41,029 bases of DNA, taken from positions 1 to 41,029 of IMG/VR virus record IMGVR_UViG_3300031707_000052; one strand, given 5' to 3'. The notes beneath the pieces were generated by a model. That model was not told the DNA's origin. It saw only the letters and a list, made by a program, of their open reading frames with translations, and searched no databases. Shown here piece after piece: positions 3,483 through 25,132 of the stretch. How positions within the stretch are numbered: the stretch's first letter is position 1; every line of letters starts with the position of its first letter. The stretch comes from a virus. Both the position numbers and the translations under genes were made by a program.

Positions 3483-4121
3483 ATGCACAGTGCTAACATC
3501 GACAACTCGGAGCGCCTGCAAAGCGTGACGACCCTGATCTTCTCGCGTGGCGAGCAGGGCATCACGACGCGGGAGATCGACCGCACCGCGGATTGCGTGG
3601 CCGTGTCGGCGATCGTCGACGAGATCCGCGACAACGGCTTCCTGATCTCCTGCCGTCACGACGGGAAGACCGAGAAGGGCCGGCAGGTCTACCGTTACTG
3701 GTACGCCGGCTACGACCAGGACGCGGACATCCACGCGAAGAAGCGCACGGACAAGTCCTACTTCCCCCGCGGCCCCCACCCCACCGTCCACCTCGCCTCC
3801 GATCCTCCGACCCCCCTCGCGGACTCTGACGGCTCTTCGCCTACCGAACTCGGGTACGCCGAGATCCTGAACCCCCCGCCCGACGTCCCGTCGCACCTGA
3901 TAGGAGAGGTCATCCGGTTCGAGCGGATGCCGGAGGAGGAGAGACGGCGGTACCAGCGCGTGTGCGAGGGGCACGCCGCGGACGGGACGTGCCTCCTCTG
4001 CGCCTGGATCATCGCCGGCGACCACGACGACGTCCTGCCGTCCTACGCGCGGAAGGCCCACGTGCTCGTCTGCGCCGATCCTTCGTTGCCCTCGAATGTC
4101 GAGTTATGCCTATCGGGTTGA
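3483..4121 (+). CDS. Winged-helix domain protein of unknown function
   Basis: A 212-aa protein. Residues about 10-70 have the pattern of a winged helix: a first helix (LQSVTTLIFSRG), a TREID turn, a recognition helix (SAIVDEIRDNGFL), then a wing ending in YRYWYAG. This layout is typical of proteins that sense or bind DNA near phage replication genes. The C-terminal half is Pro-rich in the middle and ends with a Cys/His segment (CEGHAADGTCLLC), possibly a small metal site resembling the CxxH/CxxC ribbons of phage hypothetical proteins. The ATG at 3483 was chosen over an upstream in-frame ATG because the conserved-looking protein begins there. A Shine-Dalgarno match is weak (GGGGAC). Likely DNA-binding, but target and role are unknown. 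Confidence 0.7.
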   Translation: MHSANIDNSERLQSVTTLIFSRGEQGITTREIDRTADCVAVSAIVDEIRDNGFLISCRHDGKTEKGRQVYRYWYAGYDQDADIHAKKRTDKSYFPRGPHPTVHLASDPPTPLADSDGSSPTELGYAEILNPPPDVPSHLIGEVIRFERMPEEERRRYQRVCEGHAADGTCLLCAWIIAGDHDDVLPSYARKAHVLVCADPSLPSNVELCLSG

Positions 4122-4151
4122 CTCCCAAAGGTCCACCCGTAGCGGAGGACA

Positions 4152-4490
4152 ATGCACATGGCAAGAACCGGTGCCTTTGAATTTCGACTCGCTGTCAAGG
4201 CGGTAAATGGGGAGGTCCCCGGCGATTACCTTTGGATCGAACCCGGCGAGTGGGCGTGGATAGACCTGCGTACTTCGGGAGGCAACGGATGGTGCGTTAT
4301 TATTCGGTGTCCTGATTGCGGTTGCTGCGGGACACTGTGGCGGATTGACCGGGGACACAACATCGACGCGGAGGGCAATGTCAGTCCGAGCGTTCTCGAA
4401 ACGTGTCAGCATAACTGCGGATTCCACACGATGCCGACAAAACTACTCGGATATATGGAAAAAAGGCCACTGGGTACTGTCGTTCTCTAA
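4152..4490 (+). CDS. Small Cys/His-rich hypothetical protein
   Basis: A 112-aa protein, moderately lower in GC than its neighbours. It has a clear ribosome site (GCGGAGGAC) just before the ATG. Cys and His residues are grouped as CPDCGCC near residues 53-59 and CQHNC near 85-89, which could form one zinc site. No known family is recognised. A second ATG two codons downstream is an alternative start. The gene stands alone, followed by a 192-bp gap. Confidence 0.65.
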   Translation: MHMARTGAFEFRLAVKAVNGEVPGDYLWIEPGEWAWIDLRTSGGNGWCVIIRCPDCGCCGTLWRIDRGHNIDAEGNVSPSVLETCQHNCGFHTMPTKLLGYMEKRPLGTVVL

Positions 4491-5128: not shown

Positions 5129-5923
5129 ATGACCCGCTTCGCCGCCCGTGAACGGAAGGCACTCGACGCGCTCATCGTGGGGGCCGTGCGATTCCCCAAG
5201 CAGATGATCAAGGGGATCCCCGCGGCTACTCGCGCGCCGTCCCGTTTCGCCGCCAAACTGGCTTCGCTTCGCGGCGACCGCATCGAGTGGCAGGAGGGCC
5301 TCGGGACCCTGGGCGGTGATTCAACAACAAGCCGAGGTAACGGGAAAATAAGCAAATCTGACGCCGTGGAAAACGAATCGCCAAGAAGATCATATAACAG
5401 ATTATATCGACTGAAGAATAGGAAGCGGTTGGCCGAGCGCCGTAGGGCGTGGCTGTTAAAGCATAAAGAAAGTACCAGGGAATATCATCGGATGTATCGA
5501 CCGAAGCACAAAGACATCATCAACGAAAACCACAGGAGGTGGGAGAGTAAGAACAAGAAAAAGATTAGTGAGAAGAGAAAGGCTTATCGCCTAAAGAATA
5601 GAGAGGCGGTTCTTATGCGGGAAAAAGCGCGTCGCAAAGGGAACAGAAAGTATCGCGCGGCGCGCCAACTTTGGAAGCGCCACAAAATGACCGTTCAAGA
5701 TTATGAGGCCATGTATGCCAAACAGGGTGGATTATGTGCAATCTGCGGTGGATGCAATCCACCCAGTCTGAATAATCGCACCCTCCACGTCGATCACGAC
5801 CACAAAACCAATCGAGTACGTGGCCTCTTGTGTTTGCACTGCAACACCGGCGTCGGGCATTTCAGAGATTCCCCGGAGAGGTTAATTAAGGCGGCGGAAT
5901 ATATTTCGAGCCACCAATCATGA
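5129..5923 (+). CDS. Endonuclease VII-like HNH nuclease fused to a high-GC N-terminus
   Basis: A 264-aa protein. Residues 203-250 carry the recombination endonuclease VII signature: CAIC (203-206), the His/Asp centre HVDHDH (220-225) and a second Cys pair C235/C238, with the usual RGLLC and YIS elements. This His-Me finger family cuts branched or specific duplex DNA and often behaves as a free-standing homing nuclease. Residues about 85-180 are a repetitive Arg/Lys/Tyr-rich linker, typical of DNA-wrapping segments in such nucleases. Residues 1-65 are different: high-GC coding like the surrounding phage genes and no similarity to the nuclease. Base composition drops sharply near 5320. The likely history is insertion of a mobile HNH gene into a resident gene, leaving a fused front end. 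The ATG has GGAG five bases upstream. Confidence 0.85.
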   Translation: MTRFAARERKALDALIVGAVRFPKQMIKGIPAATRAPSRFAAKLASLRGDRIEWQEGLGTLGGDSTTSRGNGKISKSDAVENESPRRSYNRLYRLKNRKRLAERRRAWLLKHKESTREYHRMYRPKHKDIINENHRRWESKNKKKISEKRKAYRLKNREAVLMREKARRKGNRKYRAARQLWKRHKMTVQDYEAMYAKQGGLCAICGGCNPPSLNNRTLHVDHDHKTNRVRGLLCLHCNTGVGHFRDSPERLIKAAEYISSHQS

Positions 5924-6450
5924 GCAGACCCGACTTCATTCAGTTCGGCGAGGGATGCGTCAGCGGTTGTATCTCGGGCCCTCTTCCTAATAAGTCCAAT
6001 TCCCGCCGGCTGTTCATTCAGCGGGGCCGGCTGCGCTCGATCAAGGAACAGGCGGCGCTCGACTGGCTCGCGGCCTTCGACGTGGCGGCGAGAGCGGGGC
6101 AGGCGCCCGCGGAACTCTCGAGGCTCACCAAGAAAGAGCGCGCCAAACTCCGCTACTCCCTCACCGCCACCGTCTATCAGGCGAACCTCCGGCGGGATCT
6201 CGACATCGAGCTTCTCTGCGATGCGCTCCAGAAGTCGGGCGTGATCGCGAATGACCGGGCGATCTGGGATAAGCACTCTCGGAGGGAGATAGACCGGGAG
6301 AATCCGAGGACGGAGTTTGTGGTGAGGCCTCTAACCGTCGCCGAGGTGCGCGAAGCCAAGAAGGCGAAGCCGGGATGCCGGCATCGGTGGGTGAGGGAAG
6401 GCGACGAACGCATCTGCTTGAAGTGCCAGAAGGCCGAGGAGGCGCGGTGA
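5920..6450 (+). CDS. rusA: RusA-like Holliday junction resolvase
   Basis: A 176-aa protein that matches the RusA pattern: an N-terminal Pro/Asn/Ser/Arg loop (GPLPNKSNSRR, residues 20-30) and an acidic cluster with D93, D95, D101 and D112 (DLDIELLCDAL, then SGVIANDRAIWD). RusA enzymes are dimeric, metal-dependent nucleases that resolve four-way junctions during phage replication and packaging. The usual Asn after the DxD is Ile here, so activity is likely but not certain. The C-terminus has an added CRHRW...CLKCQ segment resembling a small zinc ribbon. The ATG overlaps the end of the endonuclease VII-like gene by four bases, and the stop overlaps the methyltransferase GTG, so translation is coupled on both sides. 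Confidence 0.7.
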   Translation: MSRPDFIQFGEGCVSGCISGPLPNKSNSRRLFIQRGRLRSIKEQAALDWLAAFDVAARAGQAPAELSRLTKKERAKLRYSLTATVYQANLRRDLDIELLCDALQKSGVIANDRAIWDKHSRREIDRENPRTEFVVRPLTVAEVREAKKAKPGCRHRWVREGDERICLKCQKAEEAR

Positions 6451-22520: not shown

Positions 22521-22943
22521 ATGCGCCTTTTCCTCCTCTCCCTCTCGCTCCTGTGCTGCTCATGCGCCCTCACGCGCACCGTCTCCGAGCGCGACGTGAG
22601 CAAAGTTCTCGGACGGGAAGTCATCGTCGTTTACGGGACGAACGACGGATGGGAAACGCGGAATTCCGACACGCTCTACGTGTATCTGGAGCGGGGATGG
22701 CAATGGGAGCCGCACTACTACACGTGGGGCGCAATCGCCACCCTCGCGGCCAACGCCGCAGACCGCGATGCCGGAGAGGTGATGGACGCCATCGAGATCC
22801 CGAGGCGATTCATGTACGTGCCGGGGGACAGCAAGATCGACGCGACGCGGGTGCAGGCGAGGCTGGAAGGTGCGCTGCCGAGCCATTTTACGTTCCAGAA
22901 TACGAGCCCTGGGTGGCCGACTTTCTATTGGCGAGGTAGGTGA
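22521..22943 (+). CDS. Phage lipoprotein
   Basis: A 140-aa protein with a short basic start and a hydrophobic run LFLLSLSLLCCSCALTR that contains lipobox-like sequences (LCCS/LCCSC), so a Cys near residues 12-15 would be lipid-modified after signal peptidase II cleavage. The mature part has a WETRNSDTLYVYLERGWQWEP stretch and a HYYTWG loop, with no recognised domain. Surface lipoproteins made by phages often block receptors and stop superinfection or help lysis, but there is no direct evidence here. Its stop TGA is shared with the head morphogenesis start region (GGTGATG). It closes the accessory block. Confidence 0.7.
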   Translation: MRLFLLSLSLLCCSCALTRTVSERDVSKVLGREVIVVYGTNDGWETRNSDTLYVYLERGWQWEPHYYTWGAIATLAANAADRDAGEVMDAIEIPRRFMYVPGDSKIDATRVQARLEGALPSHFTFQNTSPGWPTFYWRGR

Positions 22944-25132
22944 TGTCGACGCTCGACCCGGCTGAAAAAGATTTCCGCGCGCTCCTCTCCGACTCGGGGA
23001 CGGTCGCCGCGTTGGGCGACATCTACGAGCGGGCGGCGCGCCGCATCGTCGCCGAGCTCGCCGCCGGCGTCTCCCGCCCGGGCGCGGCCCGCGCGCGCGA
23101 GTTGCTCGCCCGGATCGACGAGATCCTCGGCGATCTCGATCCGCGGAAGCAGTCATCCGTCCGGAAGTGGATCGTCGAGAACGCCCGGAAGGCGTACGTG
23201 CTGGGCGACCAGGCGGCGACGAAGCAGATCCGGGACGTGCTAGCCCGGCTGCCCGACAAGGGGCGGGCGGAGTTCGGAGAGGTCGATACGTCGTGGACCG
23301 TCATCAACAACAACGCCATGCGCGGGATCGCCGCGGCGATGTCCGCGACCCTCGGCCAGGCGAAGGCGCAGATGTCCTCCTTCCTGACGACCACGATCCG
23401 GCAGACGCAGGTTGCCGGCAATCTCTCGGAGGCGATCCTCCAGACGACGACGGGCGGCCTCCTCCGCGGCGTCGCCGGCCAGTCGATCAAGGACGACATC
23501 GCGTCCATCCTGCTCGAAGGGAAGGTTGATCCGGCGGTGAGGCAGCGGCTTTCCGAAGTCGGCTACCGGGGCGACATGTTCGACAAGTTCGAGCGGATCG
23601 CGCGCGGGGAACTGATCACGGTGGGCGGCAAGACCTTCAACGTCCGGACGTACGCGGACCTGGTGGCACGGACGCAGATGAAGGAGCTACACAAGACCGC
23701 GACGCTCGTCCGGGGCCAGCGGAACGGCTTCAACCACGTCCGGATGTCGTGGCACCCGATGGAGGAGCCCGACGAGTGCACTCCGTTCGCCGGGAAGATC
23801 TTCTACTTCGGGCCGCTGCCGCAGGACCCGCTGGGGTTCCCCCGGTTCAACATGCTGCCGAGCAACGGGGACTTCCACCCCAACTGTGCTCCTGCTGGCA
23901 CGATGATCACGACGAGTCGGGGGCGTGTGCCCATCGAGCAGATCGCAGAGGGGATGAAGGTCCTGACGCACGAGGGGCGATTCCGGCGCGTGACGGGGAC
24001 GATGCGGCGTCTCTTCGCGGGGATGCTCTATGGCGTCAACGGTGTGCGTCTAAGCGGCGGGCACCCCGTCCTGACGAATCGCGGGTGGATCTCAGCGCGC
24101 CAGATTGGCGTAGGCGAGAAGTCGTCCCCTGAACTCCCCGAGGCGTTGCGGGTTGGGATGGCTCGGGAACGGAATGCGGAATACCCGCCAGCCTTGCAGC
24201 GCAAGAGCCGAGTCGCGCTTGGCGTCGCTGGTTCGCTTCGAGGGTTTGGCGTGGAAAGAGGAATCAACCTCGATGCAGACCTGCGTGGATGGGAAGGCAA
24301 AATCAGCGACGTACCTCCCGATGGCGCGCATGAACTCGAAATGGAAACCGGCCTCGGTGAGTATGGCAATGGCGATCTTCTCGGGGCCGCTCGGCTTCTT
24401 CCGGAACGCGAGCGCGTAGCCGGCGCTCATCTTCTCTCGGATGGTTGGATCGAGGGACGGGTTATCCTGGATCATGCGCCGTCGATTGCGTGCGAAGGCC
24501 CGGGAAGTCTTATCTGTAATGCTTCCGGGCGCGCCTCCGCCACGGGGACGTGTCTTGATTCCGAACCGCTTGAAATGATCCAGCATCGTATGGCCGGAGC
24601 GGGACTTGTAGCCAATTTCTACGGCCAACTGAGAGAGCGTGCGGCCGGTCTCGTAACGTCGGCGCAGGAAGTCGCCAAGGGGCTCGCCGATTCGATCCGA
24701 GATTTTCGCGATGATCTCGCGGCGCCGCGCTTCCTCTCGGCACTTCCAGGAGCAGACCTTGACGTGAACGGGGCGGACGTGGCAGATGGGGCACATTGTT
24801 TTCATAACGTTATGGTAGCAGTAGCGGACGGCTACGTCAAGCCCCGAATCTCTCGGCGCTGGTTCGCGGGCTGGCTCTACAATTTCTCTGTTGCCGAGGA
24901 CGAGAGTTACATCGCCAACGGCGTGGTCGTTCACAATTGCGTCCACCGCTTCTCCCTCTGGTCGACGGCCGGGGTGGGCGGGGCGCAGATCGCGCGCGAG
25001 CTCGCGTGGGTGCAGCGAATCCCCGCGTCCTTCTTCGGCAAGACGGGCGCCGAGGTCCGGAAGCTGATGAAGGCAATGGGCCCGGCGGCGGTGGCGGAGA
25101 TCTCGAAGCCCTCGATGGAGGCGGCGGCGTGA
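22943..25132 (+). CDS. Head morphogenesis protein (Mu gpF-like) interrupted by an intein
   Basis: The 729-aa precursor contains a phage head morphogenesis protein split by a 351-aa intein. The N-extein (314 aa) is mainly helical and contains the Mu F-type core: NVRTYADLVARTQMKELH, then HVRMSWHPMEEPDECTPFAGK and GDFHPN. The C-extein (64 aa) begins CVHRF. The spliced sequence HPNCVHR restores the HPNC motif that is typical of the family, and total mature length is 378 aa. Such proteins are minor head components that act near the portal during assembly. GAGG at 22933 sits six bases before ATG 22943; an adjacent GTG at 22940 is an alternative. The intein is described separately. The 238 codons in the middle of the intein lie back-to-back with a separate gene on the opposite strand. 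Confidence 0.9.
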   Translation: MSTLDPAEKDFRALLSDSGTVAALGDIYERAARRIVAELAAGVSRPGAARARELLARIDEILGDLDPRKQSSVRKWIVENARKAYVLGDQAATKQIRDVLARLPDKGRAEFGEVDTSWTVINNNAMRGIAAAMSATLGQAKAQMSSFLTTTIRQTQVAGNLSEAILQTTTGGLLRGVAGQSIKDDIASILLEGKVDPAVRQRLSEVGYRGDMFDKFERIARGELITVGGKTFNVRTYADLVARTQMKELHKTATLVRGQRNGFNHVRMSWHPMEEPDECTPFAGKIFYFGPLPQDPLGFPRFNMLPSNGDFHPNCAPAGTMITTSRGRVPIEQIAEGMKVLTHEGRFRRVTGTMRRLFAGMLYGVNGVRLSGGHPVLTNRGWISARQIGVGEKSSPELPEALRVGMARERNAEYPPALQRKSRVALGVAGSLRGFGVERGINLDADLRGWEGKISDVPPDGAHELEMETGLGEYGNGDLLGAARLLPERERVAGAHLLSDGWIEGRVILDHAPSIACEGPGSLICNASGRASATGTCLDSEPLEMIQHRMAGAGLVANFYGQLRERAAGLVTSAQEVAKGLADSIRDFRDDLAAPRFLSALPGADLDVNGADVADGAHCFHNVMVAVADGYVKPRISRRWFAGWLYNFSVAEDESYIANGVVVHNCVHRFSLWSTAGVGGAQIARELAWVQRIPASFFGKTGAEVRKLMKAMGPAAVAEISKPSMEAAA
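24092..24805 (-). CDS. Vsr/DUF559-like homing endonuclease, antisense inside the intein
   Basis: A complete 237-aa gene on the minus strand, from ATG at 24805-24803 to TGA at 24094-24092. Residues 5-22 form a C4 zinc finger (C5, C8, C18, C22). Residues about 56-82 form a helix-turn-helix (TLSQLAVEIGYKSRSGHTML). The nuclease domain occupies residues 139-215 and looks like the PD-(D/E)xK-type fold of Vsr/DUF559 proteins: E142, D168 in VADF, E179 and D181 in IEVD, H185, and a KRD with D198, then GWRVFRIP. Zinc finger plus HTH plus Vsr-like nuclease is the layout of free-standing homing endonucleases, including those found near split inteins in phages (EDxHD family, Dassa and colleagues 2009). 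Codons are in exact register with the intein codons on the other strand, so TTA, CTA and TCA are absent. It carries its own promoter and no ribosome site. Confidence 0.85.
   Translation of the reverse strand: MKTMCPICHVRPVHVKVCSWKCREEARRREIIAKISDRIGEPLGDFLRRRYETGRTLSQLAVEIGYKSRSGHTMLDHFKRFGIKTRPRGGGAPGSITDKTSRAFARNRRRMIQDNPSLDPTIREKMSAGYALAFRKKPSGPEKIAIAILTEAGFHFEFMRAIGRYVADFAFPSTQVCIEVDSSFHAKPSKRTSDAKRDSALALQGWRVFRIPFPSHPNPQRLGEFRGRLLAYANLAR
24812..24840 (-). promoter_or_regulatory. Sigma-70-like promoter for the antisense endonuclease
   Basis: On the minus strand TTGACG (24840-24835), a 17-bp spacer, and TACCAT (24817-24812). The match is 5 of 6 to TTGACA and 4 of 6 to TATAAT, with optimal spacing. 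The predicted start point, about seven bases after the -10, falls on the ATG at 24805, implying a leaderless mRNA and explaining the lack of a ribosome site. It is encoded within the intein. Confidence 0.6.

Follow-up and report, generated by a model that had tools for sequence, protein, structure and literature searches.

In the textbook picture an intein is read in one frame, the homing endonuclease and the splicing domains arise from one message, and the level of the nuclease is tied to that of the host protein. The locus described here raises the question of how a nuclease is expressed when its gene lies inside an intein on the strand opposite to the splicing domains. The locus is part of a 41,029-nucleotide stretch of viral DNA (positions 1 to 41,029 of IMG/VR record IMGVR_UViG_3300031707_000052), which is referred to in its entirety as the window. 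A first-pass annotation had proposed that the nuclease is transcribed from a dedicated antisense promoter into a leaderless mRNA, and that collision with sense transcription could time a switch from homing to head production. We examined these proposals computationally.

Results

The interrupted gene encodes a MuF-type minor head protein (positions 22940 to 25132, plus strand; phrog_4611, E 3.5e-20), and its intein occupies 351 codons (23885 to 24937, plus strand). The borders of the intein are fixed by a contig, L074, that carries the empty site: it reads HPN|CVHR with no insert, and its flanks are 93-95% identical to those of the window. Compared with this allele, the insertion is precise and in frame, and its absence from so similar a sequence indicates that the intein is mobile. 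The N-terminal splicing domain (23885 to 24091, plus strand) was recognized by alignment to Vibrio inteins and by a Hint_2 match (E 7e-6, slightly under the Pfam cut-off), and its blocks A and B are present with Cys1 and the block-B His (CAPAGTMITT... and GGHPVLT). The C-terminal splicing domain (24806 to 24937, plus strand), whose codons contain the antisense promoter-like site described below, has blocks F and G that read LYNFSVAEDESYIANGVVVHN|C, ending in HN before Cys+1, and the TIGR01443 profile for the intein C-terminal region scores 29 bits there against a cut-off of 15.6. Protein splicing of the intein is predicted from these blocks and profile matches.

The flank of the insertion differs from that of the empty allele in an uneven way. 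Ten of the 20 differences within the 443 nt upstream of the insertion sit in the 34 nt before the intein (window 23850-23884 versus L074 410-443; P 6e-7). A cluster next to the insertion is what would be expected for gene conversion with a short donor flank, and it looks like a co-conversion tract from homing. It may be taken as an indirect sign of homing, in which the empty allele is cut by the nuclease and then converted.

The minus-strand frame within the intein (24092 to 24805) encodes a protein of 237 amino acids, P0001, which we assign as an endonuclease on the basis of a DUF559 profile match (PF04480; E 2e-10, 40.8 bits, cut-off 20.6) and of its GC content by codon position. Its N-terminal part is a Cys-rich, zinc-finger-like stretch and its C-terminal part is the DUF559 domain with an intact IEVD...H motif; the ADF...IEVD...H residues are kept, and the catalytic-type residues D168, E179, D181 and H185 are invariant. 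A profile of P0001 and its relatives matches PDB entries 3hrl, an endonuclease-like protein, and 3r3p, a mobile intron protein (E 2.7e-4), which we take to be I-Bth0305I of the EDxHD endonucleases. Structure prediction from the single sequence was uninformative (pLDDT 49), and no close relatives of the nuclease were found in IMG/VR or in GTDB genomes. The nuclease of a classical bifunctional intein is in frame with the splicing domains, whereas that of the window is on the minus strand.

Long antisense frames are plentiful in GC-rich genomes, and many are present in the list of open reading frames of the window, so the nuclease frame could in principle be a mere shadow of the sense intein that encodes nothing. 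The composition of the DNA argues against this. For codon positions 1, 2 and 3, the N-terminal extein has a GC content of.65/.46/.93, and the mid-intein one of.75/.51/.58 when read in sense and.58/.51/.75 when read in antisense; that is, the middle of the intein shows a coding-like pattern in the minus frame and an inverted one in the sense frame. Likewise, codon scores are +18 bits for the antisense frame and -75 bits for the sense frame, which is open throughout the nuclease region. The nuclease is the coding frame of the intein middle. A codon-usage scan of the window revealed a single sustained minus-strand coding run, at 24101-24700, which fits the first-pass statement that all other genes are read from the plus strand. 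No minus-strand terminator was predicted in the region scanned below the nuclease stop codon, and given this the antisense RNA may continue into the upstream head sequence.

The DUF559 match also speaks against a shadow frame, as do homologous proteins on the same strand in Vibrio phages. In each of the Vibrio phages 1.266.O, 1.082.O and 1.265.O, a head gene with a hint domain has a gene for a DUF559 nuclease on its antisense strand, and the three cases share the head gene, the insertion point and the codon phase of the window. Their nucleases are about 30% identical to that of the window, and their start codons lie 132-135 nt from the C-terminal end of the intein; no nucleases of this type were found in IMG/VR. 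The Vibrio nuclease genes contain no TTA, CTA or TCA codons, which would place a stop in the sense frame, against 13.4 and 14.2 expected (P 3.5e-8 and 1.2e-8), indicating that the sense frame is kept open. The corresponding values for the two GC-rich cases are P 0.4 and 0.19, and the test is powerless there. Of the few differences between the Vibrio pair, 8/10 are at antisense third positions.

A second, different nuclease family (phrog_5046, E 2e-15, with weak similarity to I-MsoI) lies antisense in the MuF intein of Gordonia phages Lennon, Sitar, Nordenberg, Thing3, Barsten and SchottB. The search of IMG/VR for nucleases of this type returned one weak, incomplete match only. The Lennon and Barsten nucleases have 73 differences, distributed 51/16/6 over antisense positions 3/1/2; 52 are in synonymous codons when the antisense frame is read, versus 66 nonsynonymous when the intein frame is read. 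This predominance of antisense third-position substitutions indicates purifying selection and an antisense frame that is kept as a protein. On the codon-position GC and the substitution patterns of the Vibrio and Gordonia pairs, we reject the shadow frame, which we regard as extremely improbable. A separate observation on the same pair is that the intein regions of Lennon and Barsten differ by 12-31% and the head-protein parts by 2-4%, which suggests that the Gordonia intein moved independently of the head gene.

None of the Gordonia and Vibrio records that we examined annotates its antisense nuclease gene, so others have probably been missed as well; among the Gordonia loci, this concerns the endonuclease genes that lie antisense within the MuF head genes of Lennon (L010), Barsten (L011), SchottB (L076) and Thing3 (L077). 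The arrangement itself must be rare, given that in 57 IMG/VR inteins collected by intein profile search the detectable DUF559-type nucleases are in frame, with the exception of a dnaX case in L055. Two IMG/VR contigs, L007 (3085-5097, with the nuclease at 3632-4438) and L055 (4859-6253, with the nuclease at 5409-6203), have dnaX-type inteins whose DUF559-type nuclease is on the same strand in the +1 frame, and they represent a second kind of hidden off-frame endonuclease arrangement. The MuF intein of L008 (2576-4816) has a related DUF559 nuclease in frame, which is the conventional arrangement and makes it useful for comparing sense and antisense versions.

The promoter-like sequence proposed upstream of the nuclease is present on the minus strand. 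It consists of a -35-like hexamer, TTGACG (24835 to 24840), which matches TTGACA at 5/6 positions, a 17-bp spacer, TAGCCGTCCGCTACTGC (24818 to 24834), and a -10-like hexamer, TACCAT (24812 to 24817), which fits TANNNT. The spacing lies within the 16-18 bp of sigma-70 promoters, and the last bases of the spacer, TGC, form an extended -10 (TGn). The first-pass annotation had placed the -10 hexamer seven bases before the ATG, but only six bases, AACGTT (24811-24806), separate it from the nuclease ATG (24805-24803); it is the seventh base downstream, the usual start, that coincides with the A of the ATG, so the predicted transcription start at 24805 on the minus strand stands. A 12-bp palindrome, CATAACGTTATG (24803 to 24814), reaches from the end of the -10 hexamer across the start codon. 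It is a possible operator, though 41 kb of sequence will often contain palindromes this long by chance.

We next consider how unusual this site is. Scored with a sigma-70 matrix in three variants, it ranks first among about 82,000 positions on both strands, with a score of 11.9 against 9.2 for the runner-up; the matrix is E. coli-type, its base frequencies were varied between the variants, and its fit to the host is assumed. A strict hexamer scan found 2 sites in 6 kb versus 0.5 ± 0.7 in shuffles, and just 2 sites of at least 9/12 in the whole window, while in a loose identity count of at least 9/12 the nuclease site ties with seven others. TANNNT occurs 5-7 nt ahead of 5/884 ATGs in the window.

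These numbers bear on a simpler explanation, namely that the hexamers arose by chance from the codons of the C-intein and from donor DNA of low GC content, and that the nuclease is expressed from a distant antisense promoter or by minus-strand read-through. Windows simulated with the same dinucleotide content attain a score of 11.86 somewhere in 12% of cases, which means that it is the location of the site, not its existence, that is unlikely. Synonymous recoding of the sense codons yields such a site in 0.1% of recodings with the codon usage of the phage, in 2.7% with that of the intein and in 3.9% with uniform usage; the value for intein usage (P 0.027) favors the chance explanation, and part of the AT-richness at the site may be donor-derived. 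The first T of TACCAT is due to a sense GTA codon, which accounts for 0.9% of the Val codons of this phage. Against chance stands the position of the site, ranked first in the window and in exact register with the start of its sole antisense gene; we estimate the chance of so good a site within about 60 nt of that gene at about 1e-4. Within 170 nt upstream of the nuclease, no other antisense site scores above 3.3, and the nuclease lacks the Shine-Dalgarno sequence that a longer transcript would need.

A comparison of 43 intein C-terminal ends (37 controls without an antisense gene and six case loci) points both ways. The antisense site of the window is the most extreme of the 43 relative to its own locus (p 0.0014), followed among the cases by 1.265.O at rank 3 (0.009), 1.082.O at 6, 1.266.O at 9, Lennon at 10 and Barsten at 24. 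One control end without an antisense gene attains 0.009, almost as extreme, and strings resembling promoters tend to turn up opposite the codons of C-inteins. The window site is thus exceptional; those of Vibrio and Gordonia lend support but are individually weaker, and the E. coli-type matrix is unsuited to Gordonia. Taken with the evidence on location, we consider a chance origin of the hexamers unlikely, if far from negligible.

Translation signals at the nuclease start are consistent with a dedicated promoter that would yield a leaderless mRNA. As the first-pass annotation had noted, there is no Shine-Dalgarno sequence there, not even of 3 nt, versus at least 4 nt at 28/31 other genes of the window, whose start codons were picked generously. 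The first 60 nt of the predicted mRNA are less structured than 200/200 shuffles (z +2.1). A top-ranked site in register with the 24805 ATG, the absence of a Shine-Dalgarno sequence and an unstructured 5' end thus lend the proposed antisense promoter and leaderless mRNA support at the level of sequence. It is also conceivable that the promoter is real and that translation begins at the second ATG (24796), giving a 9-nt leader and an mRNA that is not strictly leaderless. The protein begins MKTMCPIC, and CPIC, its first recognizable motif, comes after the second Met; moreover, a Shine-Dalgarno sequence is absent at both ATGs. However, a 9-nt leader is too short for the usual ribosome-binding site and a 5'-terminal AUG is preferred for leaderless starts, which makes initiation at the second ATG quite unlikely.

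The related loci add further support for the dedicated promoter, from upstream promoter-like sites in the Vibrio phages and from a leaderless-type -10 in the independent Gordonia case. The antisense sigma-70-like sites of the Vibrio phages have a -10 that ends 49-50 nt before the ATG, namely TTGAAA-16-TATACT in 1.265.O (rank 1 of 11,978 positions) and TGTACA-17-TATTCT in the other two (ranks 9 and 6 of 12,946), and their nuclease genes have Shine-Dalgarno leaders (AGGAG, GGAGG). The window and the Vibrio phages therefore have an antisense promoter-like site in common, with neither its position nor leaderlessness conserved. In Gordonia, both sequence types read TACGAT-N6-ATG at the nuclease start, despite an identity of just 68% between the alleles over the 100 nt upstream, and no other of the 91 ATGs of the Gordonia locus has such a match. 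The spacing is that of the window, and it is also the leaderless register described for mycobacteria (PMC3898074).

Discussion

Our best reading of this locus, which we hold to be quite probably correct, is that a dedicated antisense promoter of the sigma-70 type produces a leaderless endonuclease mRNA separate from the head gene. In this view the intein's homing endonuclease has a gene to itself, encoded on the other strand. A promoter embedded in the C-terminal splicing-domain codons (24840-24812) would start a minus-strand transcript at, or within 1-2 bases of, the ATG at 24805, and this transcript would serve as the leaderless mRNA. The head gene would be read from the plus strand, with the whole intein translated in frame and then spliced out, and the middle of the intein, complementary to the nuclease gene, would be tolerated as a linker. 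Produced independently of the head gene, the nuclease would cleave head genes that lack the intein, for instance the one in L074, and in this way lead to homing. If the antisense promoter is active, the nuclease is decoupled from sense transcription, as had been proposed. This reading assumes that the host uses an E. coli-like sigma-70 and accepts leaderless mRNA; in E. coli itself, leaderless mRNAs are rare and poorly translated (PMC3898074).

We would expect strong late sense transcription to silence the antisense promoter, so that the nuclease is made earlier or from weakly transcribed copies. The first-pass annotation had gone further in giving the promoter a regulatory role, with polymerase collision timing the switch between homing and head production; on such a view the head gene would be held down, by collision or by antisense RNA, until the nuclease is no longer made. 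The geometry would allow this, with promoter and gene head-on inside an essential head gene. On the other hand, the arrangement persists in Vibrio and Gordonia phages with differing promoter positions and leaders, which argues for nuclease expression as its function over a precisely placed collision; no regulatory site was found in the window and the promoter is unlike the homing site. A regulatory role of this kind seems very unlikely to us. Autorepression through a homing-site-like operator was considered separately and rejected; the best 20-nt match is 13/20, which 60% of random stretches attain.

Considering all cases, it is probable that phage MuF inteins recurrently carry an antisense, codon-aligned homing endonuclease, from at least two unrelated families, with its promoter in the codons of the C-terminal splicing domain, such that one strand encodes mobility and the other splicing, each expressed independently. 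An antisense nuclease with its own promoter would be uncoupled from the host protein, which would explain how it might be produced without relying on the late transcription of the head gene. It would also mean that one stretch of DNA is constrained jointly by a promoter, by an enzyme encoded antisense and by a frame that is either splicing domain or open linker. Since cultured phages are available (Vibrio 1.265.O and Gordonia Lennon), the question of the promoter is directly testable.

We found no description of an antisense or opposite-strand endonuclease in an intein in the largely open-access literature searched. Several known systems resemble parts of the arrangement. I-Bth0305I (3r3p) is related to the window nuclease by the profile match (E 2.7e-4) and, unlike it, is the product of a sense-strand gene in an intron. 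The leaderless TANNNT promoters of Mycobacterium have TANNNT placed for transcription to start at the start codon (PMC3898074); the window site differs in having a -35 match as well. The hidden HNH of ShiLan in phage methylases likewise occupies another frame of an open insertion, lacks a Shine-Dalgarno sequence and has been suggested to use leaderless initiation, but it is on the same strand, without splicing domains, and no promoter was proposed for it (PMC11855218). Nuclear group I introns of Didymium (I-DsqI, PMC9548176) and Porphyra (PMC2585584) have an endonuclease gene opposite to the interrupted gene with a presumed promoter of its own; these, however, are RNA introns of eukaryotic rDNA, which have no need of an open protein frame.

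In phage T4, I-TevI to III have endonuclease-specific promoters inside the interrupted genes, all on the sense strand, and segD, the one antisense T4 endonuclease gene, is free-standing and without a recognizable promoter (PMC2988022). The td intron with I-TevI is similar in that an endonuclease in a self-splicing element is expressed from a dedicated promoter within the gene that the element interrupts, and different in being an intron, in being on the same strand as td and in having a Shine-Dalgarno sequence that is sequestered in a hairpin; its late promoter overlaps a homing-site-like operator, and no such operator was found in the window (PMC2988022). Finally, classical bifunctional inteins, such as the MuF intein of L008, resemble the window in having Hint splicing domains inserted at HPN|C of MuF, and the L008 intein also shares the DUF559-type nuclease. 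Their nuclease is in frame, whereas that of the window is an antisense gene with its own start codon and its own promoter-like site.
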